Origin: Azadirachta indica
Lineage: Eukaryota > Streptophyta > Magnoliopsida > Sapindales > Meliaceae
Assembly: GCA_022749755.1 (NCBI GenBank)
Contig: CM040443.1
Coordinates: forward strand, 17,327,244-17,391,243
Direction of reading: 5' to 3'
DNA length: 64,000 nucleotides
Below the pieces are notes generated by a model that did no database searches, was not told the origin of the DNA, and saw only the letters and a list, made by a program, of their open reading frames with translations. The position numbers and the translations under genes are program-made. Positions 11,799 to 38,003 of the stretch are shown piece by piece; position 1 is the first letter of the stretch; every line of letters begins with the position of its first letter.

Positions 11799-12078
11799 AA
11801 TGTCTATTTATCCTTAAGCAAATCAAATAAGAAAAAATGATCACCAATAGAGAGGCCATGCCCAACATAATGCACAATAGGACAAAAAAAAAATTAGTAT
11901 ATGCTCAGTCAAAACAAAATCCAGCCTTATAGATAACGTAACATACTTAATTAAGTTAAGAAAAACTTCAAAATACTGACATTTTGTCTAGAATTTTGAC
12001 TTGAAAATCAAATGTCACTTTGCTCAAAGATTCCTTATGTAAGTATGTGAATAGCCACTCAAACTTTTTTTTTTTAAG
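11799..12078 (-). repeat. 3' internal sequence of B element, left of the nested insertion
   Basis: Non-coding AT-rich sequence that continues at 17981 on the far side of the family A composite. The interruption is flanked by TTAAG (12074-12078) and TAAAG (17981-17985), a 5-bp target duplication with one mismatch. Confidence 0.6.
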
Positions 12079-13489
12079 TGATGAATGTTTAAAAGTGTAG
12101 GTTTATCAAGAGAAATATTATGATTTACACTTAATAATGTCCTTCTATTCCGCAATAATGAAGCATATTCCTTTATATTGAATTGTAAAACATGACTTGG
12201 ACTAAATAGTCGATTTTGCGCAGATTTCGTATAATGAGCGTATCTTTCAATTCAAATCATCAATTGATACTATTCTTAGGCTGAACAAACATAAACTCAA
12301 CATTTCACAACTTTGTAATCCAAAGGTTGGACCAGTTCGAGCAATTAATGGGACAAAATTGGGCTTCAATAGAACTCAAGCGCATCTTTGAACCAGCCCA
12401 ACATGCTTCTGTATTTGGGCCATATCCCCCTAAATACGTAACTAAAAATTATACGATTGAGTGATCTAGAGACCGGGATCTAAATCTTTTATGTTTTGTA
12501 CTTTCTCAAATTTCAACTGGTCAGCTACCAAAAAGAGCTATCATTGTTGAAGGGCGGTGGAGAAATGCGACTTGAACATCTCTGCCTATTTTCAACACAA
12601 CTCACGGTCTAAAATCGTAATAAGGGTGAGATATAGACCATTAGAAAGATGAGTCATCCACCTACAACTTTGAAGAAGGCTATTTTATTAAATTCGGTGG
12701 TTTTCATGGCCATAAATATGTTGGAAGTTGGTAGAGTGTGATTCATTGGAAATTGACAAAATTATGTTCACACATGTGAAATGTCTTTTGTTTTACCTAT
12801 ATAAAGGAAGATGCGGAAGTGAAGAAGATATGAGTTTGTTTCCATTTTCTATTTTCTTTTTGTAATTTGAACTTCAATTAAATGATGTATTTCTAATTTC
12901 GTAATTAGGGCTAAGGGTGAACTTTTGATGATTTTATAGTTTTGTTCTTTGATCCTTTGTTTTGTTCTTCATTGTCGATCTTTTTATTGATTGAGTACTA
13001 TATTTTGCAAGTGATTTTGAATTGTTAGAAACCTTGATTCATTGTTAACAAATGGTACATTGAATGCTTGGATGTTTTCTACATATCAAGAGTAAGGCAA
13101 CTTATAGTTTTTCACCAGCAACTAAAAGGTAAGTCTTTTGATTTCTTTGTGCTTAAATATATTTTTTTTTCATCATCCAATTAAGATCACTTCTTTTGAT
13201 TCTTAATTGTGTTTTTTTCTTTTCAAAAAAAAAGATCAAGAATAAATTCTATACAAATCATCAAAATGGATCCCTAATGCCCTAATATACAATAATATTG
13301 AATTTAAATTTGACAATAAGCAAATTCATTCTATTTCTTATAATATTTGAATATTTGGACTTATAATATTTAGACCTTTGCACTTGTGGACTTAATATAA
13401 CGTATTCCCTGTGGATCGAAACTCGGACTTCCAAACTTTATTACTTGAGATAACCTATACTTAAAAGTTACAACCTTTAAGTTGTAGCA
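12079..13489 (+). repeat. 5' LTR (+) of the family A composite
   Basis: Length is 1,411 bp with TG...CA ends. It carries a TATA box at 12798-12805 and the conserved block CCCTGTGGATCGAAACTC near the 3' end. It is aligned by eye with seven other family A LTR copies in the window. Confidence 0.9.
12798..12805 (+). promoter_or_regulatory. LTR TATA box
   Basis: TATATAAA in the context TTACCTATATAAAGGAAG. The same box is at the equivalent place in the other full family A LTRs (for example 7650-7657), which makes it the likely core promoter. Transcription should start about 30 bp downstream, near 12830. Confidence 0.65.
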
Positions 13490-13495
13490 AATTTT

Positions 13496-13513
13496 TGGCG
13501 CCGTTGCCGGGGA
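13496..13513 (+). other. Primer-binding site, tRNA-Asp
   Basis: TGGCGCCGTTGCCGGGGA is complementary to the 3' end of plant tRNA-Asp (GTC) including CCA. It lies 6 bp after the LTR end. Asp priming is the usual state in the Athila and Tat lineages of Ty3/gypsy. Confidence 0.9.
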
Positions 13514-13884
13514 GTACTGTTTGTATAAAGTTTACTAGTTCTTATTTAATTTTCTTTTACTAACTTTAACCTCTAACTCTACCTTTCACATTTTTTTTAT
13601 TTACTTGTTGTTGTTTATTTTTATTGGGAGGCTCAACCTCCCATTTATATCTACATTATGGTTGGTTCTACATATACCACCTAATTTTTGTTGTTTATTT
13701 TGTTCATGGTAGGCTTTGCCACCTTTCTTAATTTTTTCTATTAATTATTGTGTTGTTATTTTCATTTACAATAATTTTATTAAGAGGAAGGTTATACCAC
13801 CTCTTTTCTTTTTTTATTATTTTATTGTGCTAACATTTTATTTTATTGTATTTTACTTTATTGTGTTTTATTATTATTTTTTTC

Positions 13885-14097
13885 ATGCTTGAATGGTATC
13901 GTGATCCTCATTATCATCGATTGGTGAAAGGTAATTCTGAAACCTCCTTTGGAAATTTGTTTGATTCATCTTCAAACTCACACACAACTAACACTATGGC
14001 TGAAAATGAAAATATACATAGAGAAAATGAAATTCATCATGTTCGAACCATGCGTGAATATTTGCAACCTTCTCGAAATTCCAAAGCTACAACTTAA
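13885..14097 (+). pseudogene. Start of family A gag, truncated by inverted LTR
   Basis: The ATG at 13885 opens an ORF that begins MLEWYRDP and continues through TMREYLQPS, an N-terminal gag motif of plant Ty3/gypsy elements. An in-frame upstream Met at 13846 precedes a hydrophobic leader from the T-rich 5' UTR and is less likely to be the start. After about 65 codons the frame enters the minus-strand LTR at 14086 and stops at 14095-14097, so the rest of gag is missing. The duplicate copy at 36390 has an additional internal stop. Confidence 0.65.
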
Positions 14098-15471
14098 AGG
14101 TTGTAACTCCCAAGTATAGGTTGTCTCAAGCAATAAAATTCCAAAGTCCAAGTGTCAGTCCATAGGGAATACATTATATTAAGTCCACAAGTCCAAAGGT
14201 CTAAATATTACAAGTCCAAATATTCAAATATTATAAGAAATGGAAAGAATTTGCTTATTGTCAAATTTAAATTCAATATTATTATATATTAGGGCATTAG
14301 GGATCCATTTCAATGATTTGTATAGAATTTATTCTTGATCTCTTTTTTTAAAAGAAAAAAACACAATTAAGAATCAAAAGAAGTGATCTTAATTGGATGA
14401 TGGAAAAAAGAAACATTTAAGCATAAAGAAATCAAAAGACTTACCTTTTAGTTGATAGTGAAAAACTATAAGTTGTCTTGCTCTTGATATGTAGAAAACA
14501 TTCAAGCATTCAATGTAACATTTGTTAACAATGAATCAAAGTTTCTAACAATTCAAAATCATTTGCAAAATATAGTACTCAATCAATAAAAAGATTGACA
14601 ATGAAGAACAAAACAAACGATCAAAGAACAAAACTATAAAATCATCAAAAGTTCACCTTGAACCCTAATTACGAAATTAGAAATATATCATTTAATTGAA
14701 GTTCAAATTACAAAAAGAAAACAGAAATGTAAAAATTCTTCCCCTTCCTCACTTCCACATCTTCCTTTATATAGGTAAAACAAAAAACATTTCATATGTG
14801 TGAACATAATTTTGTCAATTTCCAATTAATCACGCTCTATCAACTTCCAACATATTTTTGACCATGAAAACCACCGAATTTTGTAAAATAGCCTTCTTCA
14901 AATGATCCATATCTCACCCTTATTGCTATTTTAGATCATGAATTATGTTGAAAATAGGCAGAGATGTTCAAGTTGCATTTCTCCACCGCCCTTCTAGAAT
15001 TATAGCTCTTTTTGGTAGCCAATCAGTTGAAATTTGAGAAAGTGCAAAACATAAAAGATTTAGATCCCTTTATCAGCTCTCTAGATCACCCAACCATATA
15101 ATTTTTTGTCACATATTTAGGGGGATATGGCCCAAATATAGAAGCATGTTGGGCTGGTTTAACGATGCACTTGAGTTCTTTTGAAGCCCAATATCGTCCC
15201 ATTAATTGCTCGAAGTAGTCCAACCTTTAGCTTACAAAGTTGTGAAATGATCAGTTTGTGTTTGTCCAGCTCAAGAATCGTATCAATTGATGATTTGTAT
15301 TGAAAGATACGCTCATTATACTAAACCTGGGCAAAACCAACTATTTATTCTAATTCATGTTTTACAATTCAATATAAAGGAATATGCTTCATTATTGGGG
15401 AATAGAAGGACATTATTAAGTGTAAATCATAATATTTCTCTTGATAAACCTATACTTTTAAACATTCATCA
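14086..15471 (-). repeat. Inverted family A LTR inside the composite
   Basis: Full LTR on the minus strand: its 5' TGATGAATG end is at 15471 and its 3' end at 14086. The terminal dinucleotide at 14084-14085 reads AG rather than TG, and the copy at 36591 shows the same change, so the junction predates the duplication. The LTR faces the plus-strand LTR at 12079-13489 across a 596-bp spacer. Confidence 0.88.
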
Positions 15472-16252
15472 TATCCCCCAACCAGCTTATTATGAGTCCC
15501 TAGTAATCTAAGCAATACCATTTAGAGTTGATTTATAAAATTTACATTCAAAGTAAAAATTATTCTTTTCCTTTTCATCTTCTCAAAATAAACAAACTCT
15601 CACTTAAAAATTTACTTTATATGTGCCAAATACTCATCAGTCAACTTATTAATAAATCTTCTTTTTATGCTTTTGTAACTAATACATGTTATGGGACTTA
15701 ATTGGAATCAAACAACATTGGTTCTAAATTTTGTCAAGATAAACTTCTTTGGACAAATATTATTTCTATCTCCATTTTTTTTTTTGTTTGCGCATAACCT
15801 AACCCGTGTAGCGAGTTTTGGGCCAATAACTCCCAGACAAGTTGGCGTTAAGGTATTGGGTGTTAAAACACCTCTACGGGCTTAATTACTCGAGTTATGA
15901 CTATGAACTTATTCATACCAAAACTTTACCGTTTTACGCGAATATTCACTGTTGATTAGGCAAGAAGCCCGGTTACTATAAAAAAGATTTGGTTAGAATT
16001 TTTACTTCTTTTTTTTTTTAACCCTTAGTTGCTACCTTTGACAAAACAAAAGAGCTCAAATATTGTAAAATTCCAATATGTCATCCACAATCATGTATCA
16101 AAGTGTATGTGTGAAAAGAGGTGGTATAACCTTCCTCTTATTAAAATTATTATAAATGAAAATAACGACACAATAGTTAATAGAAAAAATTAAAAAAGGT
16201 GGCAAAGGCTACCATGAACAAAATAACACAAGAAAACAAGTAATGTATATAC
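15472..16252 (-). repeat. Inverted family A internal sequence (PPT side, then 5' side)
   Basis: Minus-strand 3' internal sequence with a polypurine tract (TTGGGGGATA) is next to 15471. It runs to about 16114, where it joins directly to minus-strand 5' internal sequence (the reverse of 13680-13830). The source element therefore already lacked gag-pol. The small ORF at 15691-15885 has no recognisable domain and lies in this non-coding DNA. Confidence 0.75.
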
Positions 16253-16567
16253 AAAAAAAAAAATAGAAGATAGAAATAATCTTTGCCCAAAGAAGTTTAC
16301 CTTGACAAAATTTAGAACTAATGTATTTTGATTCCAATTAAGTCCCATAACATGTATTAGTTATAAAAGCACAAAAAGAAAGTTTATTAATAATTTGACT
16401 GATTAGTATTTGACACATATATAGTAAATTTTTAAGTGAGAGTTTGTTTATTTTGAGAAGATGAAAAAGAAAAGAATGACTTTTACTTTGAATGTAAATT
16501 CTATAAATCAACTCTAAATGGTATTGCTTAGATTACTAGGGACTAGTAATAAGCTGGTTGGGGAGTG
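16253..16567 (+). repeat. Family A 3' internal sequence and polypurine tract
   Basis: This is the plus-strand copy of 3' internal sequence, an inverted repeat of 15472-15780. It ends with AAGCTGGTTGGGGAGTG (tract at about 16558-16567) immediately before the 3' LTR. Confidence 0.75.
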
Positions 16568-17980
16568 TGATGAATGTTTAAAAGTATAGGTTTATCAAGA
16601 GAAATATTATGATTTACACTTAATAATGTCCTTCTATTCCGCAATAATGAAGCATATTCCTTTATATTGAATTGTAAAACATGAATTAGACTAAATAGTC
16701 AGTTTTGCGCAGGTTTCGTATAATGAGCGTATCTTTCAATCCAAATCATCAATTGATATGCTTCTTGGGTTGAACAAACATAAACTTATCATTTCACAAC
16801 TTTGTTAGCCAAAGGTTGGACCAGTTTGAGCAATTAATGGGACGAAATTGGGCTTCAAAAGAACTGAAGTGCATCTTTGAACCAGCCCAACATGCTTTCG
16901 TATTTAGGCCATATCCCCCTAAATACGTTATGAAAAATTATATGGTTGGGTGATTTAGAAAGCTGAGAAAGGGATCTAAATCTTTTATTTTTGTACTTTC
17001 TCAAATTTCAATTGGTCAACTATCAAAAAGAGCTATAATTCTATAAGAGCGGTGAAGAAATGCGACTTGAACATCTCCGCCTATTTTCAACACAACTCAC
17101 GGTCTAAAACAGCAATAAGGATGAGATATGAACCGTTAGAAAGATGAGTCTTCCACCTACAACTTTAAAGGTGGCTATTTTATGAAATTCGGTGGTTTTC
17201 ATGATCAAAAATATATTGAAAGTTGGTAGAGCGTGATTAATTAGAAATTGACAAAATTATGTTCACACATATGAAATATTTTTTGTTTTACCTATATAAA
17301 GGAAGATGTGGAAGTGAGGAGGGGGAAGAATTTTTACCATTTTTGTTTTCTTTTTGCAATTTGAACTTCAATTAAATGATGTATTTATAATTTCGTAATT
17401 AGGATTAAGGGTGAACTTTTGATGATTTTATAGTTTTGTTCTTTGATCCATTGTTTTGTTCTTCATTGTCAATCATTTTATTGATTGAGTACTATATTTT
17501 GCAAGCGATTTTGAATTGTTAGAAACCTTGATTCATTGTTAACAAATGGTACATTGAATGCTTGGATGTTTTCTATATGTCATGAGCAAGGCAACTTATA
17601 GTTTTTCACCATCAACTAAAAGGTAAGTCTTTTGATTTCTTTGTGCTTAAATGTCTTTTTTTAATCATCCAATTAAGATCACTTCTTTTGATTTTTAATT
17701 GTATTTTTTTCTTTAAAAAAAAAGAATCAAGAATAAATACTATACAAATCATTAAAATGGATTCCTAATGCCCTAATATATAATAATATTGAATTTAAAT
17801 TTGACAATAAGCAAATTCATTCCATTTCTTATAATATTTGAATATTTAGACTTATAATATTTAGACCTTTGGACTTGTGGAAGTAATATAACGTATTCCC
17901 TGTGGACCGACACTCGAACTTCCGAACTTTATTACTTGAGACAACCTATACTTGGGAGTTACAACCTTTAACTTGTAGCA
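16568..17980 (+). repeat. 3' LTR (+) of the family A composite
   Basis: Length is 1,413 bp from TGATGAATG to ACTTGTAGCA. It is followed by TAAAG, which nearly matches the TTAAG before the 5' LTR. Comparing it with 12079-13489 would date the composite. Confidence 0.9.
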
Positions 17981-21322: not shown

Positions 21323-21823
21323 CTAAAATGATGATGCTCGAAATACCGGTCGGGAGATCCTGTCTGTCGTAGAATCTCTAGCGAGGTTGGCGTGTGTATG
21401 CCCAATTAGCCATGAAATCTGCTGCATGGTTCGCCTCTCTAAATATATGTTTGATCTGCAATGGAGGCGAATCTGTGCCAAAATATACACATAATCCCAA
21501 TGACGCGTGCCTCGTGACGAAATCCAAGAAACAGCCGTGGTCGAATCTGACTCTACTATAAAGTGTGAAAAGCCCAACTCTAATGCTATCTCGAGCCCCT
21601 CGCATATAGCTGTCAACTCTGCATAAATGATAGGTTGATAACCCAAAAAGTGTGCGAAGGCATGTAGTATCTGCCCCCTACTATCTCGAAAGATCCCTCC
21701 AATAGCAGACATACCTAGGTTACCTTTAGAACAGCCATCCACATGAAGCTTCACGATCCCCTGTTGTGGTCGCTCCCACGATATCAATCTGATTGGCCTT
21801 TGCCTAGGAAAAACAGTCCTCAA
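21323..21823 (-). pseudogene. LINE RNase H domain (RVT_3-like), frameshifted
   Basis: The 166-codon ORF contains a plant LINE RNase H: KLHVDGCSKGN (first Asp), YAELTAICEG (Glu), FIVESDSTTAVSW (second Asp). The last part (REANHAADFMANWA, with the final catalytic Asp) is in a different frame, read at 21378-21605, so a frameshift near 21440 separates it. The domain would cut RNA in RNA:DNA hybrids during target-primed reverse transcription. As it stands it is inactive. Confidence 0.8.
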
Positions 21824-22789: not shown

Positions 22790-23390
22790 AGCCCAGACCA
22801 CCCTTCTTAAAGGGGTAACAAACTGATTACCACTTACCTCTAAAAGAGAGTAAGCGATTCGCCCATCCTGAGATCCGCTCTTTAATCCTCTGAACCAAGT
22901 CATCAAAGTAGCAAGACCTCAGGTTCCCCAAGTAGATGGGGCACCCGAGGTAGATCATAAGTAGTTGCCTCTGCTGGAAACCTATAACCAATTGGACAAT
23001 GGTCCGTCTAGATGCCGAAAAAGAACTCTCTACGAAGAAGCTACTTTTTCCCTAACTGATCATCTGGCCCGACATCATCTCATAATGATGAAGGGAGTCC
23101 ATAATGCTCTGAAAATTGGCCCTGTCTCCATTAGCGAAAATCACAATGTCATCTACGAAACTCAGGTGCAAGATGGTCAACTGGGAGCTAGTGCGATATG
23201 CCATAGATGGATACCTAGCATACAAGTCATCTAGACCTCTAAATAAGAACTCAACAACAATTATGAACAAGCAATGTGAAATAGAGTCGCCCTGCCTGAC
23301 TCTACCCTGTGACTGGAAGAAACCGTGAAGGACCCCATTCACCATCACTAAGAACCATGGACCCATAATTACTCTCTTGATCAAAGAAAT
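22790..23390 (-). pseudogene. LINE reverse transcriptase, C-terminal part
   Basis: The 110-codon ORF at 23052-23384 shows RT motifs in order: GRVRQGDSISHCLF (block 4), then LSFVDDIVIFANG with the FVDD catalytic site, then the downstream helix. Past its stop the alignment continues in other frames to about 22790 (YLGCPIYLGNLRSCYFDDL, RISGWANRLLSF), which is the usual RT connection segment of plant L1 elements. It is joined to zf-RVT debris at 22099-22320. Confidence 0.75.
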
Positions 23391-23425: not shown

Positions 23426-23668
23426 TTGGAATGAATTTGCTTATTGTCAAATTTAAATTCAATATTATTATATATTAGGGCATTAAGGATCCATTTTAAT
23501 GATTTGTATAGAATTTATTCTTGATCCTTTTTTTTTAAAAGAAAAAAACACAATTAAAAATCAAAAAAAGTGATCTTAATTGGATGATTAAAAAAAGACA
23601 TTTAAGCGCAAAGAAATCAAAAGACTTACCTTTTAGTTGATGGTGAAAAATTATAAGTTGCCTTGCTC
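23426..23668 (-). repeat. 3' LTR fragment of the Athila element
   Basis: It matches about 240 bp of the middle of the family A LTR (for example 31480-31715). The outer end is cut at the LINE junction. The inner end jumps from CTTGCTC straight to internal AGTAATCTAAGC, so the rest of the LTR and the polypurine tract are lost. Confidence 0.8.
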
Positions 23669-24871
23669 TAGTAATCTAAGCAATTACTAGTCCCTAGTAA
23701 TCTAAGCAATACCATTTAGATTTGATTTATAAAATTTATATACAAAGTAAAAATCACTCTTTTCCTTTTCATATTCTCAAAATAAACAAACTCTCACTTA
23801 AAAATTTACTCTATATGTGCCAAATACTCATCAATCAAATTAGTAATAAACCTTCTTTTTGTGCTTTTGTAACTAATACATGTTATGGGACTTAATTAGA
23901 ATCAAGCAATGTTGGTTCTAAATTTTGTCAAGGTAAACTTTTTTGGGCAAAGATTATTTTTATCTCCATTTTTTTTCTTTTTTTTTCTTTGTGCATAACC
24001 TAACCCATATAGCGAGCTTTGGGCCAATAACTCCCAGACCAGTTGGCCTTAAGGTATTAGGTGTTAAAACACCCCTACGAGCTTAATTACTCAAGTTAAG
24101 GTTATGAACTTATTCATACCAAAACTTCACCGTTTTACGTGATATTCTCTGCTGATTAGGCAGGAAGCCCGGTTGCTAAGTAAAAGTTTTGATTAGAATT
24201 TTTACTTATTTATTTTGTTTTTAACTTTTTTATTTTTATTTTTTTTTTGGAGATTTTTTTTAAAAATTTTTTAACCCTTAGTTGCTACCTTTGACAAAAT
24301 TCAAGAGTTCAAACATTGTAAGATTTCAATATGTCATCCACAATCATGTATCAAAGTGTGTGTGTGAAAGATGGTTTATAAATACTTTACTGATTGAGTA
24401 TCTGAGCAGAATTTATTATGTGATGATGATGTGAGAGTTCGTATATTTGATCAATTCAAAAGAAAGTAAATGATGAATTCTTTGTTATGAAATTCAAAAA
24501 TTAAAACAAATGATAATGCATATCTACTAAGATGTGTCTCAGGAGTAAGATTACTCCTTACTCTACCATCCTTACAAATTATGAATCTAATTTTTTTTTA
24601 GTTGTATATATAAAAAAAATGGTTACTTATGTCGACTACACTCCCCTTAACCACATTGCAACATTGTCCCCAATGTTAAATTTAAAGAGGTACAATATAG
24701 AGAACATTATCTAAGATAGTAGTTATTGAAACACAAGTAAAGCCTGAAACAAATTTAAGCAAAAATAACTAAAAAAAATAACAAAATGCAATGAGTAGAA
24801 AAAAGAGATAAGAAAAGTTACAAATGAAGCGACAAATCCAGCTTTCGCTTTTTACTGCTTTCACTTGACCA
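23669..24871 (-). repeat. 3' non-coding region of the Athila element
   Basis: The part 23669-24377 matches the 3' internal sequence of the composites (15472-16114 and 38004-38640). The part 24378-24871 is seen only here. It contains ACATTGTCCCCAATGTT (24661-24677), whose minus-strand reading is the ATTGGGGACAATGT signature typical of the region after pol in plant Athila-like elements, next to TTAAGGGGAGTG. These markers place the LOG-like ORF inside the element. No ORF of interest is present. Confidence 0.75.
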
Positions 24872-25468
24872 TTATAATCGTGCCATTGTTGGATTTGGTT
24901 CATGGACAAAGTTCTGCAACTGATTGATCAAGTCATTAGCAGTCGAAGTAGAAATGAGGAGTTTGCCAGTCATCTGTGAAATAAAATTCTGTTCTACAGC
25001 ATGATCAAGAAAAGACAGCAACTTGTTAAAGAAACCATTAACATTTAACAATCCTATGGGTTTTTGATGAATGGTGAGTTGTGCCCAAGATGCAATTTGA
25101 AAAATTTCTTCTAAGGTCCCAAAACCACCTGGTAAGGCAATAAAAGCATCTATAGAATCAAGCATTTTAGCAATTCTTTCATGCATTGTTGAGACTATTA
25201 GTTCTTCTCCAACTGTTTTGCCAGTTATGTTAAATGCAGATAAAGCCTTTGGTATGATACCTATGACTTCACTTCCTCCTATATGTGCGGCAGTTGACAC
25301 ACACGCCATTAACCCAAGGCTACCTCCTCTATACAGTAGGTTAAGTTTTCGCTCAACTAAAACTCGACCTAGGTTGTCCGCTGCTTTTACAAACTCTTCA
25401 CCTTTCCCAGAGCTTGACCCACAAAAAACACAAATAATTTTAAATTAATGAATAAAAGCTCCTTCCAT
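24872..25468 (-). pseudogene. LOG-like: LOG-like cytokinin-activating enzyme gene, intron-free, captured in Athila
   Basis: The ORF starts MEGAFIH, has one TAA at codon 8, then runs open for 190 codons to 24872, so it has nearly full LOG length (198 codons). LOG enzymes remove ribose 5'-phosphate from cytokinin ribotides to release the active base in cytosol and nucleus. Visible motifs are ICVFCGSSSGKG near residues 12-23, MHERIAKM at 95-102 and PGGFGTLEE at 113-121; the Arg of the first and the final Glu of the second are the catalytic pair in this family. SWAQLTIHQKPIGLLNVNGF follows. Changes from canonical LOGs are YRGGS for YGGGS and MHERIAKM for MHxRKxxM. Host LOG genes have several introns; none is seen here. 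An in-frame Met at codon 54 could restart translation but would lose the N-terminal nucleotide-binding segment. It lies 235 bp downstream of an accessory ORF, in the orientation of pol. Confidence 0.88.
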
Positions 25469-25703
25469 TTTTTTTTTTTTGCAATCTTTTACTCTCGTCA
25501 GTGATTCAAATTTTTTTATGAAAATAAAGAAGTAAGGTCCTGCATTTACACAATTTAAAGAGAATACATTAATGAAACCAATAGAGGTAAGCCAGCTATT
25601 GTCATAAAAGTTAAAATTTAAAAATGTAAAAATGTCAAAGATAATAGCTAATATAGGAATCTAAAACATAAAAATTTCAACAATGACAGCTAAAAGTAAA
25701 TAT

Positions 25704-26321
25704 TTATAGATAGTTGTGATTGTGGCTTACATCTTCCTCTGATTTTACGTCCAGTAACGGCTTAAACGCCCTCTATGAGTCGAGGATTGACTTCCCATCT
25801 AATTTTCTTACAAATTGTCAAACAGGGTCTTTTAAAGTCAGATTCCCAAGACTATAACGATCATGTTCTTTTTGAAATAATATATACAAATTGTGAATTT
25901 CACGTTGCACATATCCACAAGGATGCATCTCAAGAGTCAATAAGATATTATCTAAAGACTCCTAACTCAGTCCATCCTTGATGAATTTAATTTTATCTTC
26001 TCTATTAGTAGACACCATCCCTAGAAAACGACATCGCTTGTTACAGGTTGAACGTGCACAATTGTGACACACTTGTAACCTTTTCGCTCTTCGTTTCTTT
26101 GCAAAAGAGCTCTTACCTAAACCAGGCATACGTGAAACAAATGAATCAGAAAACTCACCTGCTAAACGTACCTTTGCTTCAATTATCCATCACACATCTT
26201 CAGGAATACCTTTTTGCATAAGCATTCTTAATTTTGCACACCTAGCTTGGTATATTTTTCGTAGAACATTTTTAGGAAAAGAAGGAAAATATGTTTGCAA
26301 TCTAGAAATAATGACATCCAT
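25704..26321 (-). pseudogene. Unrecognised accessory ORF of the Athila element, Cys cluster, four stops
   Basis: From Met at 26321 (start MDVIISRLQTYF) one frame stays protein-like for 206 codons, interrupted by TGA at 26190, TAG at 25962 and two later stops. It ends with TAA at 25704. The product would be small and basic, with a KKRRAKRL run followed by CHNCARSTCNKRC (C-x2-C-x4-C-x3-C), which suggests a metal-binding or nucleic-acid-binding module. I do not recognise the family. It lies 181 bp after the integrase end and 235 bp before the LOG-like ORF, all on one strand, at the position where Athila elements may carry an env-like gene; no transmembrane segment is visible after the chosen start. 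A longer start at 26456 would add a hydrophobic leader. The last codons contain GAT/GTAAGC, which resembles a splice donor. Confidence 0.5.
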
Positions 26322-26502
26322 AATGAAAGAAAAGAACAGAAAAAGAAGTGAGAGAAAAAATATGGTATCAGTAATTTTGGGTAACTGAAAGAACCGACTT
26401 GAAGAGTCACGGAGTACCGTTATCCGCCACTTGACCGAGAAAGTAACTAAAAACAAACAATGGATTCAATAAAATTAGTAATGTCTATACAAAAAAAAAA
26501 AA

Positions 26503-28971
26503 TCATCCAGTGTTGTAAACAGGTTCATTCAAAGTGATAGACTCTAACTCGCTTGGAAAATTCTCAAAGAATGGCTTTAAACAGTGTCCATTAACTTTAA
26601 AAACGCTACCATTTTTAGGGTTCTCAATCTCAACAGCGCCATGTGGGTAAACCTTCTTAACAATGAAAGGACCTGTCCATTTTGAATGAAGTTTGCCAAG
26701 AAATAGATGCAATCTTGAATCATACAAAAGAACTTTTTGTGAAGGTTCAAATGATTTTCTAATGATATGTTTATCATGAAACACCTTCATTTTCTATTTG
26801 TAAATTCTAGAATTCTCGTAAGCTTCATTCCTAATTTATTCGAGTTCATCTATTTGGAGTTTTCTCAATGATCCTGCTTTATCTAAGTCAAAATTAAGCA
26901 TTTTAATGGCCCAAAAAGCTTTATGTTCTAATTCCACCGGTAGGTGACAAGCCTTTCCAAAAACAAGTCTATAAGGAGACATGCCAAGTGATGATTTAAA
27001 AGCAGTTCGATAAGCCCAAAGTGCATCAGTTAGTCTTAAAGACCAGTCCTTACGATTCGGGTTTACCATTTTTTCCAAAATGTGTTTTATTTCTCTATTG
27101 GCAAGTTCAACTTGTCCACTTGTTTGTGGGTGATAAGGGGTAGACACTTTATGTGTAATTCCATATTTTTTCATTAAATTCTCAAAAGGGTTATTACAAA
27201 AGTGTAAACCTCCATCACTTATTATGGTTCGAGGCACTCCAAATCTTGAAAAAATGTTTTCTTTCAAAAATTTCAAAACAATTTTATGATCATTATTTTT
27301 GCAAGAAATTGCCTCTACCCATTTTGAAACATAGTTAACTCCAACTAAAATGTATTGATACCCAAAAGAAGATGGAAAAGAACCCATAAAATCAATACCT
27401 CAACAATCAAATATTTCAATGACTAAAATAGGATTTAATGGCATCATGTTTCTATGAGTTATTCCACCTAATTTTTGACAACAGTCACATGTTTTACAAA
27501 ATGTATGTGTGTCTTTAAATAAAGTGGGCGAATAAAATCCACATTGCAAGATTTTTGCAGCAGTTTTCTTTGAAGAAAAATGACCACCACATGCTTCGGA
27601 ATGACAAAAAGAAATGATATTTTGAATTTCATTGTTAGATACATATCTCCTTATAATTTGGTCAGGGTGATATTTGAAAAGATATGGATCATCCCAAAAG
27701 AAATTGCGTACCTCCCTTAAAAATTTCTTTTTGTCTTGAGCATTCCAATGATTTGGCATTTGACCTGTAACAAGAAAATTGACAATATCAGCAAACCAAG
27801 GTAAAATAGAAACATTGAAAAGTTGCTCATCAGGGAAATTGTCATTAATTGGTGTTGTCTCAATCGATTCTTCAAACATAAGCCTTGACAAGTGATCAGC
27901 AACCACATTTTGTACTCCTTTTTTGTCTTGAATTGTAAGATAAAATTCTTGGAGTAGTAAGATCCACCTAATCAATCTAGGTTTAGCACCCTTTTTTGAA
28001 AGAAGATATTTTAATGCTGCATGATCACTAAAAATCACAATGGGTGAGCCAACAAGATAAGATCGAAATTTATCCAATGCAAATACTACTGCAAGTAATT
28101 CTTTTTCAGTGGTAGAATAATTCATTTGAGCACTGTTTAAGGTTTTACTACCGTAGTAAATCATATAGGGTTTCTTGTCCTTTCGTTGTCCTAAAACAGC
28201 TCCAACAGCATAATCGCTAGCATCACACATGATTTCTGAAGGCAAAGTCCAATTTGGAGGCTGTATGATAGAAGCAGATGTTAGCATGGTTTTAAGTTTG
28301 ACAAAAGTTTCTTGACATGACTCAGTCCACTCAAAAAGAGCATCTTTTAATAAGAGATTGCACAATGGTCTTGATATAACACTAAAGTCTTTGATAAATC
28401 TCCTATAAAAACTAGCATGTCCTAAAAATGATCTAATATTTTTGACAGAATTAGGAACGGGTAAATTGGCAATTAATTCAATTTTACATTTATCTACTTC
28501 AATTCCTTTTGATGAGACAATGTGACCAAGCACAATACCATTTGTGACCATGAAATGACATTTTTCCCAATTAAGCACAAGATTCTTTTCTTCACACCTA
28601 ATCAAAACTTTTTCCAAGTTAGATAAGCAATCATCAAATGAATCACCAAAAACAGAAAAATCATTCATGAAAACTTCAAGAAATCGTTCAACCATATCAC
28701 TAAAAATACTAAGCATGCATCTTTGAAATGTAGCTGGTGCATTACACAATCCAAATGGCATCCTTCTATATGCAAAAGTTCCAAATAGACAAGTGAAAGT
28801 GGTCTTTTCTTGGTCTTCAGGTACAATTTCAATTTGATTATACCCAGAATACCCATCTAGGAAACTATAAAATGCATGTCCAACTACCCTTTCTAACATT
28901 TGATCTATGAATGGTAACGGGAAATGGTCTTTCCTAGTCATTGAATTGAGTTTCCTATAGTCAATGCACAT
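26503..28971 (-). pseudogene. Athila pol: RT, RNase H, integrase
   Basis: One frame carries the whole region with a few stops. RT begins at CIDYRKLNS; the first catalytic Asp is in SFLDGYSGY. The key YxDD-type motif reads FMND (residues 101-104, near 28665), where Asp to Asn from a G to A change should kill the polymerase. RNase H follows (IMCDASDYAVGAVL). The integrase zinc finger has its His and Cys pairs (CHSEACGGH ... CKTCDCC). A TGA at 27402 replaces the Trp of FDCWGIDFMG. The integrase core has ISDGG and QVELANRE, 35 residues apart (D,D35E). Stops near 26835 and 26795 interrupt the C-terminal part. RT, RNase H and integrase make and insert the element DNA in the nucleus. Confidence 0.93.
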
Positions 28972-31368
28972 TCTCCAGCCAGTAATTGTTGACTACAGTA
29001 ACTCCAGATTTCTTAAGTACAACTTGTGTAGGATTTACCCATGTGCTATCAAAAATGGGATAAATGATCCCTACATCTAAAAGCTTGAAAACTTCATTTC
29101 TCACTACCTCTTTCATATTAAGATTTAGCCTACGTTGCATTTGTCTAGATGATTTGGCATTATCTTCCAAATATATCTTATGTGTACAAATCAAAGGATT
29201 AATTCCTTTTTTGTTAGCTATTGTCCATCCGAAGGAATGTTTATGTAATCTTAGAATTTCGAACAACTGACATTCTTGAACAGCACTGAGTTTAGAAGAA
29301 ATTATCACAGGAAAAGTTTGATTAGCACCCAAGAAAGCATACTTGAGGTCAGATGGTAATGGTTTCAATTCAAGTTTTGGTGGTTGAACACTCGATGGCA
29401 TCGGTTTATCAGCACGTTGACGTAAGTCTTCAAATTTTGGTCTCCATCCATTAACTTTCAAAACCTGAGAAGATTTTAAAAGAGAATAAATATGAGACAC
29501 TTCAAAATTTTTATCAAAATTGAAATCATTGCAACCGTTCAAACAAGCATCCAAGGGATCAGAAAAAGATGAAACATTAAAGTAGTCATGAACGAGTTTC
29601 TCAGTATAACTAACTTCATGCATGTCATCATTTTCACTAGGTTGCTTGCAAATATTAAACACATTCATTCCTAATGTCATGTTTCCAAAGGATAATTTTA
29701 GAACTCCATTTCTACAGTTAATTATTGCATTAGATGTAGCAAGAAATGGACGTCCTAATATGACAGGAATTTTGGTGCTTGAGATAGGAACAAGTTGTGT
29801 GTCTAAGACAATAAAATCTACAAGAAAGTAAAATTTATCTACTTGGACTAACACATCCTCAAGTATTCCTCGTGGTATTTTCACAGAACGATCAGCAAGT
29901 TGAAGTGTTGTAGAAGTAGGTTTAAGCTCACCTAAACCTAATTGCTCATACACTGAAAATGGCAACAAATTAACATTTGCACCAAGATCAAGTAAAGCAT
30001 AGTTTATCCTAAAGTTTCCAATTACACAAGAAATGGTGGGACAACCAGGATCTTTATATTTTGGTGGAGTGTTATGTTGGATAATTGAACTAACACTCTC
30101 AGTTAAAAATGCTTTCTTTTGAACATTAAGCTTCCTTGTAACAGTGCATAAATCTTTCAAAAATTTGGCATAAGAAGGAACTTGCTTAATTGCATCTAAC
30201 AAAGGAATGTTAATTTTGAGTTGCTTAAAAAGTTCAAAAATTTTAGAATTTTGGTTCAACTTTTGAATTGGTTGCAATCTTTGAGGAAAAGAAGCAGGGA
30301 TAGGGCATTTTTCAACATCACACATCTTAGATTCAACATTATTTTCCTCACTCACTAATTTTGATGGTTCTTTAGGTTCAATCTCTTTCAAAGAAATGGT
30401 TTTATCAATGACCTTACCACTTTGGAGAGTAGTGATGGAGTTGACATTCTCATGCTGTGTGCCATTTGAGTTAGAATCACTTACATGAAATTGACCCGCT
30501 GGATTTCGTTGTGGTTGAGCAGGAAATTTACCTTTTTCTTGACTACGCAAAGCTAAGGTCAATGTTGAAAGTGTATTCTTGATATCATTAATGGCTTGTG
30601 ATGTTTGATTGTTTATGCTTGTTTGCCCTTGCATGAATGTTTGCAACATTTTCTCAAGAGTTTTCAAATGTGGTGAATGGTATGATGGAAAACTTAAAGG
30701 TCTTTGAGGTGGTGGATGAGCATGATTATCATTTTTCCAACTAAAATTTGGGTGATTTCTCCATCCAGGATTGTATGTTTCAGAATATGGAGAATTAGAG
30801 GAAAAAGGTTTTTTGAAAGAATTCATAGAATTTGCTTGGTCATGCAACACTTCTTTAAAAATTGGAATATTTGGACAATGTTGAGTGGAATGTCCCATGA
30901 CTTCACAAATTTCACAAACTTCATCATTATGCACAGATTTGACTTCTTTAACTTTCCTTAATTCCATGGCTTCAATCTTTCTCGTTAAATTTGTAATTCT
31001 AGCACTTAGATCATCTTCTTGACTCAAATTATATTTACCCCCACTAGAACTAGCCATATTAGATCTAATTAAATTTTCAGAGGAACTAATGTTTTGCCAG
31101 GATTGAGAGTTCTCAGCTAAATGATCTAAATACTCTGAAGCTTCTTCTGGGTCTTTGTCTAAAAATTCACCATTACACATTGTTTCAACAAATTATTTTG
31201 TTTATGGTGTTAACCCTTCATAAAAGAAACTTATCGTATGCCATTTTTCAAAACCATGGTGTGGGCATGAATTCAACAAGTCTTTAAATCTTTCCAAACA
31301 TTGAAAATAGGTTTCATTTCCTTTTTGACAAAAATTTTGAATTTGTCTCTTGAAAGCATTTGTTTTAT
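28961..31368 (-). pseudogene. Athila gag C-terminal half, protease and RT start
   Basis: Gag begins without its N-terminus at NAFKRQIQNF (31368) because the 5' LTR is joined here. Two TAA codons between 31201 and 31195 interrupt EGLTPxTKxFVETM; both fit CAA to TAA. The long ORF from 31180 (739 codons) has a zinc knuckle CEICEVMGHSTQHC (CX2CX4HX4C, residues 89-102), a variable linker with TLQSGKVID, and a protease core ALLDLGANVNLLPF (residues 395-408). The DLGA form is normal for Athila-like proteases. It ends in VILGRPFLAT and the RT fingers. Near 28975 a deletion of roughly 30 bp with a frameshift separates it from the pol frame. Confidence 0.92.
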
Positions 31369-32695
31369 GTATAGGTCGTTTCAAGTAATAAAGTTCGGAA
31401 GTCTGAGTGTCGAGCTACAGGGAATACGTTATATTAAGTCCACAAGTCTAAAGGTCTAAATATTATAAGAAATAGAATGAATTTACTTATTGTCAAATTT
31501 AAATTCAATATTATTATATATTAGGGCATTAGGGATCCATTTTAATGATTTGTATAGAACATATTCTTAATCCCTTTTTTTAAAGAAAAACACAATTAAG
31601 AATCAATAGAAGTGATCTTAATTGGATGATGAAAAAAAATATTTAAGCACAAAGAGATCAAAAGACTTACCTTTTAGTTGATGGTGAAAAACTATAAATT
31701 GTCTTACTCTTGATATGTAGAAAACATCCGAGCATTCAATGTACCATTTGTTAACAATGAATCAAGGTTTCTAACAATTCAAAATCACTTGCAAAATATA
31801 GTACTCAATCAACAAAAAGTTGACAATGAAGAACAAAACTATAAAATCATCAAAAGTTCACCCTTAGCCCTAATTACTATATTAGAAATACATTATTTAA
31901 TTGAAGTTCAAATTATAAAAAGAAAATAGAAATGGAAACAAACTGATCTCCCTCCTCCTTCCACATCTTCCTTTATATAGGTAAAACAAAAGACATTCCA
32001 CATGTGTGAACATAATTTTGTCAATTTCCAATTAATCACGCTCTACCAACTTCCAACATATCTTTGACTACGAAAACCACTGAATTTCGCAAAGCATCCT
32101 TCTTCAAAGTTGTAGGTGGATGACTCATCTTTCTAATGGTCCATATCTCACCCTTATTTCTATTTTAGACCGTCAGTTGTGTTGAAAATAGGCAGAGATG
32201 TTCAAGTCGCATTTCTCCACCGCCCTTCTAGAATGACAGCTCTTTTTGGTAATCGACCAGTTGAAATTTGAGAAAGTACAAAACATAAACAATTTAGATC
32301 CTTTCTCAGATTTCTAGATCACCCAACCATATAATTTTTCGTTACATATTTAGAGAGATACGGCCCAAATACAGAAGCATGTTGGGCTGGTTCAAAGATG
32401 CGCTTGAGTTCTGTTGAAGCCCAATTTTGTCCCATTAATTGCTCCAACCTTTGACTTACAAAGTTGTGAAATGATGAGTTTATGTTTGTCTAGCCCAAGA
32501 ATTGTATCAATTGATTATTTGGATTGAAAGATACGCTCATTATACGAAACATGCGCAAAACTGACTATTTGGTTCAATTCATGTTTTACAATTCAATATG
32601 AAGGAATATGCTTCATTATTGGGGAATAAAGGGACATTATTAAAAGTAAATCATAATATTTCTCTTAATAAACCTACACTTTTAAACATTCATCA
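31369..32695 (-). repeat. 5' LTR of the Athila element
   Basis: Minus-strand family A LTR starting TGATGAATG at 32695. Its inner end stops at CGACCTATAC (31369), 32 bp before the expected TAGCA. It contains the TATATAAA box (plus-strand TTTATATAGG near 31970). The 5 bp beyond it (ATTGG) abut the start of the duplicated segment at 32701. Confidence 0.9.
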
Positions 32696-34578: not shown

Positions 34579-35991
34579 TGATGAATGTTTAAAAGTGTAG
34601 GTTTATCAAGAGAAATATTATGATTTACACTTAATAATATCCTTCTATTCCCCAATAATGAAGCATGTTCCTTTATATTGAATTGTAAAACATGACTTGG
34701 ACTAAATAGTCGATTTTGCGCAGGTTTCGTATAATGAGCGTATCTTTCAATCCAAATCATCAATTGATACGATTCTTAGACTGGACAAACATAAACTCAT
34801 CATTTCACCACTTTGTAAGCCAAAGGTTGGATCAGTTCAAGCAATTAATGGGATGAAATTGGGCTTCAACAGAACTCAAGCGCATCTTTGAACCAGCCAA
34901 ACATGCTTCTATATTTAGGCTGTATCTCTCTAAATAGGTAACAAAAAATTATATGGTTTGGTGATCTAGAAATCTGAGAAAGGGATCTAAATTGTTTATG
35001 TTTTGTACTTTCTCAAATTTCAACTAGTCGGTTACCAAAAGGAGCTATCATTCTAGAAGGGTGGTGGAGAAATGCAACTTGAACATTTCTGCTTATTTTC
35101 AACACAACTCACACTCTAAAATAGAAATAAGAGTGAGATATGGACCCTTAGAAATATGAGTCATCCACCTACAACTTTGAAGAAGGATGCTTTACGAAAT
35201 TCGGTGGTTTTCATGGTCAAAGATATGTTGGAAGTTGGTAGAGCGTGATTAATTAGAAATTGACAAAATTATGTTCACACATGTGGAATGTCTTTTGTTT
35301 TACCTATATAAAGGAAGATGTGGAAGTGAGAAGGGAAAGAATTTTTACCATTTCTCTTTTCTTTTTGTAATTTGAACTTCAATTAAATGATGTATTTCTA
35401 ATTTCGTAATTAGAGCTAAGGGTAAACTTTTGATGATTTTATAGTTTTGTTCTTTGATCCTTTGTTTTGTTCTTCGTTGTCAATCTTTTTATTGATTGAG
35501 TACTATATTTTGCAAGTGATTTTAAATTGTTAGAAACCTTGATTCATTGTTAACAAATGGTACATTGAATACTTGGATGTTTTCTACATATCAAGAGTAA
35601 GGTAACTTATAGTTTTTCACCACCAACTTAAAGTCAAGTCTTTTGATTTCTTTGTGCTTTAATTTTTTTTTTTCATCATCCAATTAAGATCACTTCTTTT
35701 GATTCTTAATTGTGTTTTTTTCTTTTAAAAAAAAAAATCAAGAATAAATTCTATACAAATCATCAAAATGGATCCCTAATGCCCTAATATACAACAATAT
35801 TGAATTTAAATTTGACAATAAGCAAATTCATTTTATTTCTTATAATATTTGAATATTTGGACTTATAATATTTAAACCTTTGGACTTGTGGACTTAATAA
35901 AACGTATTCCCTGTGGATGAACACTCGGACTTCCGAACTTTATTACTTGAGATAACCTATATTTGGGAGTTACAACCTTTAAGTTGTAGCA
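34579..35991 (+). repeat. 5' LTR (+) of the duplicated family A composite
   Basis: 1,413 bp from TGATGAATG to GTTGTAGCA, the partner of 12079-13489. It is preceded by TAATG in place of TTAAG. Confidence 0.9.
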
Positions 35992-35997
35992 GGTTTT

Positions 35998-36015
35998 TGG
36001 CGCCGTTGCCGGGGA
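35998..36015 (+). other. Primer-binding site, tRNA-Asp (duplicated copy)
   Basis: TGGCGCCGTTGCCGGGGA, identical to 13496-13513 and still a perfect complement of the tRNA-Asp 3' end. Confidence 0.9.
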
Positions 36016-36389
36016 GTACGGTTTGTATAAAGTTTACTAGTTCTTGTTTAGTTTTCTTTTACTAACTTTAACCTCTAACTCTACCTTTAACATTTTTTTT
36101 TATTTACTTGTTGTTGTTTATTTTTATTGGGAGGCTCAGCCACCCATTTATATTTACATTATGGTTGGTTCTATATATACCACCTAATTTTTATTGTTTA
36201 TTTTGTTCATGGTAGGTTTTGCCACCTTTCTTAATTTTTTCTATTAACTATTGTGTTGTTATTTTCATTTACAATAATTTTATTAAGAGGAAGGTTATAC
36301 CACCTCTTTTCTTTTTTTTTATTGTTTTATTGTGCTAACATTTTATTTTATTGTATTTTACTTTATTGTGTTTTATTATTATTTTTTTC

Positions 36390-36590
36390 ATGCTTGAATG
36401 GTATCGTGATCCTCATTCTCATTAATTGGTGAAAGGTAATTCTGAAACCTCCTTTGGAAATTTGTTTGATTCATCTTCAAACTCACACACAACTAACACT
36501 ATGGCTGAAAATGAAAGTATACATGGAGAAAATGAAATTCATCATGTTCGAACCATGCGTGAATATTTGCAACCTTCTCGAAATTCCTAA
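36390..36590 (+). pseudogene. Start of family A gag, duplicated copy with internal stop
   Basis: Same truncated gag start as 13885. It begins MLEWYRDPHSH and hits TAA where copy 1 has a sense codon (CGA). The frame resumes through GNSETSFGN and TMREYLQPS and ends at TAA 36588 by the junction with the inverted LTR. The copies differ in the last codons (TCC TAA against TCC AAA). Confidence 0.6.
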
Positions 36591-38003
36591 GCTACAACTT
36601 AATGGTTGTAACTCTCAAGTATAGGTTGTCTCAAATAATAAAATTCGAAAGTCCGAATGTTAGTCCATAGGGAATACATTATATTAAGTCCACAAGTCCA
36701 AAAGTCTAAATATTACAAGTCCAAATATTCAAATATTATAAGAAATGGAATGAATTTGCTTATTGTCAAATTTAAATTCAATATTACTATATATTAGGGC
36801 ATTAGGGATCCATTTTAATAATTTATATAGAATTTATTCTTGATCTTTTTTCTTTAAAAGAAAAAAACACAATTAAGAATCAAAAGAAGTGATCTTAATT
36901 GGATGATGAAAAAAAAACATTTAAGCACAAAGAAATCAAAAGACTTACCTTTTAGTTGATGGTGAAAAACTATAAGTTGTCTTACTCTTGATATGTGGAA
37001 AACATCCAAGCATTCAATGTACCATTTTTTAACAATGAATCAAGGTTTCTAACAATTCAAAATCACTTGTAAAATATAGTACTCAATCAAAAAAAAGATT
37101 GACAATGAAGAACAAAACAAACGATCAAAGAACAAAACTATAAAATCATCAAAAGTTCACCTTGAACCCTAATTACGAAATTAGAAATATATCATTTAAT
37201 TGAAGTTCAAATTACAAAAAGAAAACAGAAATGGTAAAAATTCTTCCCCCTCCTCACTTCCACATCTTCCTTCATATAGGTAAAACAAAAGACATTTCAT
37301 ATGTGTGAACATAATTTTGTCAATTTCTAATTAATCACGCTCTATCAACTTCCAACATATTTTTGACCATAAAAACCACTAAATTTTGTAAAATAGCCTT
37401 CTTCAAAGTTATAGGTGGATGACTCATCTTTCTAATGGTTTATATCTCACCCTTATTGCTATTTTAGACCATGAGTTATGTTGAAAATAGGCAGAGATGT
37501 TCAAGTTACATTTCTCCACCGCCCTTCTAGAATTATAGCTCTTGTTGGTAGCCGACCAGTTGAAATTTGAGAAAGTGAAAAACATAAAAGATTTAGATCC
37601 CTTTCTCAGCTTTCTAGATCACCCAACCATATAATTTTTTGTCACGTATTGAGGGGGATATGGCTCAAATACAGAAGCATGTTGGGCTGGTTCAAAGATG
37701 CACTTGAGTTCTTTTGAAGCCCAATTTCGTCCCATTAATTGCTCGAACTGGTCCAACCTTTGGCTTACAAAGTTGTGAAATGATGATTTTATGTTTTTCC
37801 AGCCTAAAAATCGTATCAATTGATAATTTGGATTGAAAGATACGCTCATTATACGAAACCTGGGCAAAACCAACTATGTAGTCTAATTCATGTTTACAAT
37901 TCAATATAAAGGAATATGCTTCATTATTGGGGAATGGAAGGACATTATTAAGTGTAAATCATAATATTTCTCTTAATAAACCTACACTTTTAAACATTCA
38001 TCA
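36591..38003 (-). repeat. Inverted family A LTR, duplicated copy
   Basis: Full minus-strand LTR matching 14086-15471, with the same AG rather than TG at its 3' boundary. Its 5' end is at 38003, next to a minus-strand polypurine tract (plus-strand CACCCCCCAACCAGC). Confidence 0.88.

Follow-up and report, generated by a model that had tools for sequence, protein, structure and literature searches.

The window, that is, the whole stretch of Azadirachta indica DNA that was analysed (64,000 nucleotides; contig CM040443.1, positions 17,327,244 to 17,391,243), contains a LOG-type gene within a Ty3/gypsy element that lies on the minus strand. The order of the parts, as read from the Pfam domains, is gag-protease ORF, reverse transcriptase (RT), RNase H and integrase, and the RT, RNase H, integrase series lies between LTRs, which were recognized in the window and in another copy of the family (the C8 copy). 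The following features were assigned:

31371 to 32695, minus strand: 5' LTR, from sequence and repeat matches; its start is at 32695, its inner end, at about 31371, is approximate
28961 to 31180, minus strand: 739 aa ORF, assigned by its position to gag and protease of the polyprotein
27400 to 28971, minus strand: reverse transcriptase, RNase H and integrase zinc-binding domain (PF00078, PF17917, PF17921)
26836 to 27387, minus strand: integrase core (PF00665)
26503 to 26790, minus strand: integrase C-terminal part, by position; open frame, no Pfam match
25779 to 26465, minus strand: second accessory ORF, putatively of the flexivirus nucleic-acid-binding (cysteine-rich) type; broken in the window
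25540 to 25541, minus strand: possible splice acceptor AG (TGCAG, then GACC), found by eye, 71 nt before the LOG ATG
24818 to 25468, minus strand: LOG gene, a 217-codon frame including the stop, as in copy L003
24662 to 24674, minus strand: conserved ATTGGGGACAATG motif, downstream of LOG
23427 to 23669, minus strand: 3' LTR remnant of 243 bp, 90.9 per cent identical to the 5' LTR over 241 columns

The 5' LTR of the window element begins with TGATGAATG at 32695 (first letters TGATGAATGTTTAAAAG; the LTR of the C8 copy begins alike). Because it is joined directly to gag, the leader, the primer site and the gag start are absent from this copy. No Pfam match was obtained for the 739 aa gag-protease ORF at E 0.001. 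An ATHILA ORF-1 or an env-like domain is a mark of the Athila lineage; at the same threshold, Pfam found neither in the 739-aa, 88-aa and 95-aa ORFs of the defective window copy. The element can be called Athila-like, a name based on the ATTGGGGACAATG motif and the integrase tail and not on a tree. Adjoining the 3' LTR remnant, RNase H-like and RT pieces (21323-21823 and 23052-23384) were seen, which probably belong to a LINE-like element. Six more fragments of the same LTR, each of about 1.4 kb, lie in both orientations at 6921-8312, 12076-17951 and 34579-38003, some of them forming large inverted repeats; LTRs of the LOG-bearing family are thus clustered here, nested or rearranged.

The original prediction of a LOG gene at this place on the minus strand was confirmed: the ORF 24872-25309 matched PF03641 with an E value of 4e-40 and Arabidopsis At2g37210 with 6e-44, far beyond chance. 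The PF03641 domain is accompanied by the PGGxGTxxE motif of the LOG family, and the predicted sequences MHERIAKM and PGGFGTLEE are both present. With regard to the extent of the gene, position 25468 is indeed the A of the ATG, but the frame is not the nearly full-length open ORF that had been described, as it has two stops. Codon 8 is TAA (25447-25445), and a second TAA at codon 199 (24874-24872) ends the frame and removes the tail, with its LxLxL sequence, that other copies possess. The open copy L003 has 216 codons, and the equivalent end of the frame in the window would be at 24818. Moreover, in the window copy the glycine loop YGGG is changed to YRGG (Gly47 is Arg). The window LOG copy is dead. 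The predicted neighbours were found in place: upstream, and oriented alike, are the integrase core (26836-27387) and its C-terminal ORF (26503-26790), and downstream is the motif (24674-24662). A second accessory ORF (25779-26465), broken in this copy and lying between integrase and LOG, had been missed.

The genome examined (280.8 Mb, 21 contigs) has at least 150 LOG matches, pieces included, these being the best 150 of 326 candidates scored. Linkage between integrase and LOG was counted among the 150 integrase matches listed. A LOG was found downstream of the integrase on the same strand, at a median distance of about 2.0 kb, in 53 of the 56 matches with at least 90 per cent identity (that of the window included), in 25/43 matches at 80-89 per cent, in 1/2 at 70-79 per cent and in 1/49 below 70 per cent. 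When the results of a search with the complete LOG were inspected by eye, LOGs were seen at one of the three leftover integrase matches of at least 90 per cent identity and at five of the 18 leftover matches at 80-89 per cent. The ATTGGGGACAATG motif follows the aligned LOG end by 147-211 nt in 33 of 34 copies with flanks (at most two mismatches). LOG is thus part of the element, as predicted, and is fixed in the element family within this genome; the gypsy elements concerned are bearers of a LOG/YgdH domain. Several pairs or triplets of matches with identical scores on one chromosome, which include pieces of host LOGs, were noticed (for example C2:690766 and C2:2810551; C4:1109291 and C4:17160901; C5:1908287, C5:9103292 and C5:19067805); they are either recent duplications or an assembly artefact.

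The element LOG is free of introns, as had been claimed, whereas two host-type LOG loci (L066 and L083) are split into separate frames; of these L066 looks partly decayed. Host LOGs were sought among 150 scored places, most of which are element copies, so the host genes named are a minimum. A further locus, L031 (C7:771375), is LOG3-like, intron-free and decayed, and is not of the element type; L032 (C7:5951074) has the same score. The two look like an ordinary processed LOG pseudogene that was later duplicated.

In 22 of 34 copies the DNA from integrase to LOG contains a frame of 170-257 codons, open from stop to stop; in the window it is broken by three stops (two TGA and one TAG). The protein of the C8 copy matched PF05515 (Viral_NABP) with 26.7 bits (cut-off 23, E 6.4e-6) and Carla_C4 with 17.4 bits, below the cut-off of 20.9. 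Among 19 copies, chosen from those with open frames, PF05515 was matched at E <=0.01 by 18 (best 1.4e-7) and Carla_C4 by 14. An HMM search listed 42 places in the genome, all above the PF05515 cut-off, with a listed LOG downstream of 33, and found no ORF of this type in 14 control genomes (kind of genome unstated). In a search with the C8 ORF, LOG was downstream of 123 of the 150 places listed (median 1045 nt), and near the integrases of less than 70 per cent identity the ORF was seen in 0/49 cases. With the cysteine-rich proteins of carlaviruses, allexiviruses and mandariviruses the second ORF shares the PF05515 match and a basic stretch followed by four cysteines; it differs from them in being encoded by an LTR retrotransposon, in its modest score and in the Carla_C4 match below cut-off. 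An AlphaFold model of the protein had a mean pLDDT of 48, which leaves the fold unconfirmed. The modest HMM score suggests that the second ORF is homologous to flexivirus nucleic-acid-binding proteins. According to PMC12172455, suppression of RNA silencing is a common role of the cysteine-rich proteins of carlaviruses.

The sequence TGCAGGA is present about 70 nt before the LOG ATG in 29 of 34 copies; four copies (L007, L024, L027 and L028) have TGCAAGA, in which a G of the site is changed to A, and L015 has TACAGGA. A donor-like AAAG/GTAATT is present in the leader of the C8 copy. Both sites were picked out by eye, with no control. In-frame splicing of the leader to LOG was considered and rejected: the donor and the acceptor picked by eye differ in phase, and translation of LOG would therefore start at its own ATG. 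Identity between the LTR pieces is 97-98 per cent in the C8 copy and 91 per cent in the window copy. At a plant substitution rate of 1.3e-8 this would correspond to ages of about 1 million years for the C8 copy and about 3 million years for the window copy.

At an E threshold of 0.001 a protein search with P0001 found 7921 matches, and ordinary LOGs are surely among these. The 120 matches listed include Melia, Diplodiscus, Reevesia, Pterospermum, Populus, Parasponia and Xanthoceras, with no row from Citrus; Reevesia contributed 40 rows from separate loci, and a single Pterospermum cluster comprises 327 sequences. The nearest named relative by identity among the matches listed is from Melia azedarach (87 per cent over 90 per cent of the length). 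A second search brought further Xanthoceras rows and Acer. The matches listed represent five rosid families; the assignments of Melia (Meliaceae), Reevesia and Parasponia were looked up, and those of Diplodiscus, Pterospermum, Populus, Xanthoceras and Acer are the ones we presume. Most of the rows from other species are known as proteins alone, and a link to an element was seen only for Melia and Xanthoceras. The N-terminus of the Melia azedarach model P0005 matches the element leader of the C8 copy in 21 of 24 residues, and a 44-aa piece of a Xanthoceras LOG gene model is 52 per cent identical to the window gag-protease ORF. P0005 runs from the 5' leader peptide straight into LOG (compare L081, around 5804, minus strand) and is either a deletion derivative, with the leader joined to LOG, or a spliced model. 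In the Xanthoceras sorbifolium model P0003 two LOG pieces are joined by a polyprotein-like piece; these are probably neighbouring elements fused by annotation.

A tree was built from 64 proteins chosen by hand from the match lists (36 element-like, 26 host and two bacterial rows as outgroup). All 36 element-like LOGs fall on one side of a branch with SH-aLRT support of 97, adjoining the plant LOGs, and the 26 host rows group with a support of 90. The tree comparison that the original prediction had proposed thus gave a single element-like clade. Within it, rows of the Xanthoceras and Acer type stand outside a clade (support 99) of the other 28 element-like rows. The topology fits one capture, and gives no date.

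For residue counts, 118 element-like rows (three fused Xanthoceras models were dropped) were aligned with 166 host rows; from the host set one row, the Xanthoceras and Acer rows and all rows with a tail or a truncated tail had been removed, so that it was partly chosen by the tail. Residue numbers of the element LOG are offset by one from those of the Corynebacterium glutamicum enzyme (residues 8-187 of the query correspond to chain positions 9-188). The catalytic Arg98 is present in 111/118 element-like rows, Glu121 in 115/118 and Thr118 in 117/118. In the 102 tailed rows Arg98 was kept in 95, Glu121 in 99, Glu120 in 98 and Trp128 in 100. The adenine/prenyl-site Lys99 was kept in only two of these rows and is otherwise Met (39), Ile (36), Leu (24) or Thr (1), i.e. 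Met, Ile or Leu in 99; Glu124 is Gln in 67 and His in 29 (Gln or His in 96). His96 was kept in 58/102 and Met95 in 88/102. All 166 host rows have the host letter at each of these positions. The lysine was also kept in ten Xanthoceras rows and one Acer row. Scored by pattern, RKAxM without LxLxL occurs in 14 of 140 rows (ten Xanthoceras, four unnamed), both together in a single row (P0112), LxLxL without RKAxM in 109 and neither in 16, one of the latter being an Acer row that reads MHERKVEM. The Xanthoceras and Acer rows shown retain LEELFE, and most of them end in a basic stretch. The AlphaFold model of the LOG protein had a mean pLDDT of 85, with tail residues 202-216 below 50, and its best Foldseek match was Arabidopsis 2a33 (TM 0.95 by target).

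In the C. glutamicum LOG, as described in PMC4979012, the adenine site consists of Met96, Lys100 and Glu121, catalysis is ascribed to Arg99 and Glu122, and the prenyl site seems to be made up of Met96, His97, Lys100, Glu125 and Trp129. Alanine replacement of the tested residues, with the exception of Ser19, nearly abolished activity (PMC4979012). On the classical reading, in line with the original suggestion of a hormone-activating enzyme, the element would produce active cytokinin by the usual reaction and so drive cell division or alter the tissue of its own expression. The LOG fold, the retention of Arg98, Glu121 and the phosphate loop, and the rows from Xanthoceras and one from Acer that keep the lysine (MHERKAEM, MHERKVEM) and Glu124 agree with such an activity. 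Against this, Lys99 and Glu124 are replaced in nearly all tailed rows, the counterpart of Lys99, Lys100 of C. glutamicum, belongs to the adenine/prenyl site, the exchanges tested in that enzyme, one serine excepted, left it nearly inactive (PMC4979012), and the window copy itself is dead. The replacement of Lys99 in 99/102 tailed rows makes ordinary cytokinin activation by the tailed LOGs doubtful, and we regard the classical reaction as an unlikely function of the element gene. Other residues that are invariant in hosts (His96 and Met95) have drifted as well, which is equally compatible with simple loss of function and with a new function.

Most element-like LOGs also differ from the host rows in their tail. 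In unselected rows, LxLxL was found within the last 15 residues of 102/121 element-like proteins and of 0/120 rows from a LOG3 search. Its leucines are nearly invariant (L212 in 108/111, L214 in 104/109, L216 in 107/109). LxLxL is the sequence of an EAR-like motif, and short motifs of this kind can arise by chance. To judge from its letters, the tail, with its basic stretch, could act as a nuclear signal and an EAR motif.

The comparison of dN and dS among element-borne copies, which had been recommended as a check, did not reveal constraint on LOG within the examined genome. Pooled dN/dS (561 pairs of 34 copies, near-duplicates included) was 0.74 in the true frame and 0.39 and 0.68 in the wrong frames; for 272 pairs of an old and a young copy the values were 0.68, and 0.54 and 0.64. 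A true-frame value below 1 can therefore be ruled out as evidence of constraint, the wrong frames having given lower ones. The fall of dN/dS with dS (1.04 at 0.02-0.05, 0.59 at 0.10-0.20) was discarded as biased by the binning. Shared variants (those in three or more copies, after removal of five near-duplicates) did not differ from singletons in their ratio of nonsynonymous to synonymous changes: 66/17 versus 79/31 in 37 copies (p 0.24) and 26/15 versus 75/25 in 29 young copies (p 0.22). The integrase tail likewise showed no difference (9/3 versus 31/13, 26 copies), which indicates that the test cannot separate constraint from decay and has no power. The within-genome selection tests do not support function. 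Stops are present in 20 of 34 LOG copies (the window copy and near-duplicates counted) and recur at codons 8, 40, 128, 130, 160, 165 and 190 (L001-L091). The idea that the codon-8 stop marks an amplified broken lineage was abandoned: on a tree of flanking DNA it needs three changes for four copies, which makes recurrent mutation likelier, perhaps C-to-T at methylated sites.

These stops and the null results of the constraint tests are what would be expected if LOG had been captured once and then copied along, without use, as passenger DNA. Against this reading stand the conservation of the element LOG, which follows that of host LOGs site by site (Spearman 0.52 for per-site entropy over 210 sites; 0.53 with 17 diverse element rows), the nearly invariant tail leucines and the rows from several rosid families. 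We consider the passenger reading improbable.

Some or all of the tailed LOGs of other species could instead be host genes, either of a LOG class that was captured repeatedly or derived from the element. The Populus rows, known from proteins alone, are annotated as LOGL10 genes. However, they fall in the element-like clade, and the element-like rows make up one clade; the 40 Reevesia loci among the 120 matches listed and the Pterospermum cluster of 327 look like a mobile element, and the domain is reported from gypsy consensus sequences of Populus (PMC9289625). We give this alternative little credence as well. Finally, the idea that a processed LOG pseudogene inserted secondarily into a single element, for which the decayed intron-free L031 elsewhere in the genome might be quoted, is refuted by the LOG at the same place in 53/56 close integrase matches, and no poly(A) tail, which the original prediction had named as the sign of such an event, was seen by eye after the window LOG.

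The LOG domain in gypsy elements is known in kind, although the original prediction knew of no described Athila family with this cargo. According to PMC9289625 (2022), gypsy consensus sequences from two species of Citrus contain a YgdH domain, in agreement with Steinbauerova et al. 2011, as do, under a looser filter, those of Populus trichocarpa; the link to LONELY GUY is named there. These are likewise LOG-type domains inside rosid gypsy LTR retrotransposons; the hosts differ, and the section concerned gives no position, pocket residues, tail, second ORF or phylogeny. PMC9289625 was the only report of LOG in gypsy elements found in a search of the open-licence literature, and among the titles and opening lines of abstracts listed none hinted at the tail, the altered pocket or the virus-like ORF. 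The pocket change, the LxLxL tail and the virus-like second ORF are the new part.

Between pol and the 3' LTR, Athila-type elements carry further ORFs, env-like or other (PMC7264820). In the present family, too, most copies have an additional ORF in sense orientation at that place as a fixed part, but the proteins encoded are a LOG and one that resembles flexivirus nucleic-acid-binding proteins, and Pfam did not find an env-like domain. A Phalaenopsis gypsy lineage has captured and kept another host enzyme domain, an AlkB m6A demethylase, for which in vitro activity was shown (PMC9289625); the enzyme is a different one. Compared with the plant cytokinin riboside 5'-monophosphate phosphoribohydrolases (Arabidopsis LOG3, 2a33, and LOG8, 1ydh), the element LOG has the same fold, phosphate loop and catalytic Arg and Glu, but has no introns, has Lys99 and Glu124 replaced and possesses the extra basic and LxLxL tail.

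We consider it probable that LOG is a fixed accessory gene of an Athila-like Ty3/gypsy family, namely a captured, tailed and nuclear LOG-fold enzyme with a changed pocket. In this scheme LOG was most likely captured once, as the copy of an mRNA of a plant LOG gene, most likely before the split of the rosid families that now carry it, and would since have been carried along by the element at its place between integrase and 3' LTR; its expression would most likely be from a subgenomic RNA made by splicing. The host-type pocket is retained in the Xanthoceras and Acer rows. The other lineages have lost the lysine and glutamate of the adenine/prenyl-group site, with retention of the phosphate loop and of the catalytic Arg and Glu, and have gained the basic and LxLxL tail. 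The product is most likely a nucleotide phosphoribohydrolase of LOG fold whose base preference has changed, and it most likely enters the nucleus, where a TOPLESS-type corepressor could be bound by the EAR-like tail; the neighbouring flexivirus-type nucleic-acid-binding protein could counter silencing. A more far-reaching version, which we put forward tentatively as a possibility, is a rosid-wide two-gene cassette between pol and 3' LTR, in which a nuclear EAR-type LOG effector with a rebuilt nucleotide pocket and a flexivirus-type cysteine-rich nucleic-acid-binding protein would let the transposon influence silencing and the host's control of hormones or transcription.

For most extra ORFs of plant LTR retrotransposons the role is unclear (PMC7264820). 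Here one such ORF is a recognizable enzyme with a solved fold that occurs in several rosid families, and its pocket changes and conserved short tail make direct predictions. A practical consequence concerns annotation, as element LOG rows may be filed as host cytokinin genes (e.g. Populus LOGL10). Through the virus-like second ORF, retrotransposons would be connected with plant RNA viruses. Should the tail recruit a corepressor, or the enzyme act on another nucleotide, the family would show how a transposon makes use of a stolen hormone gene.
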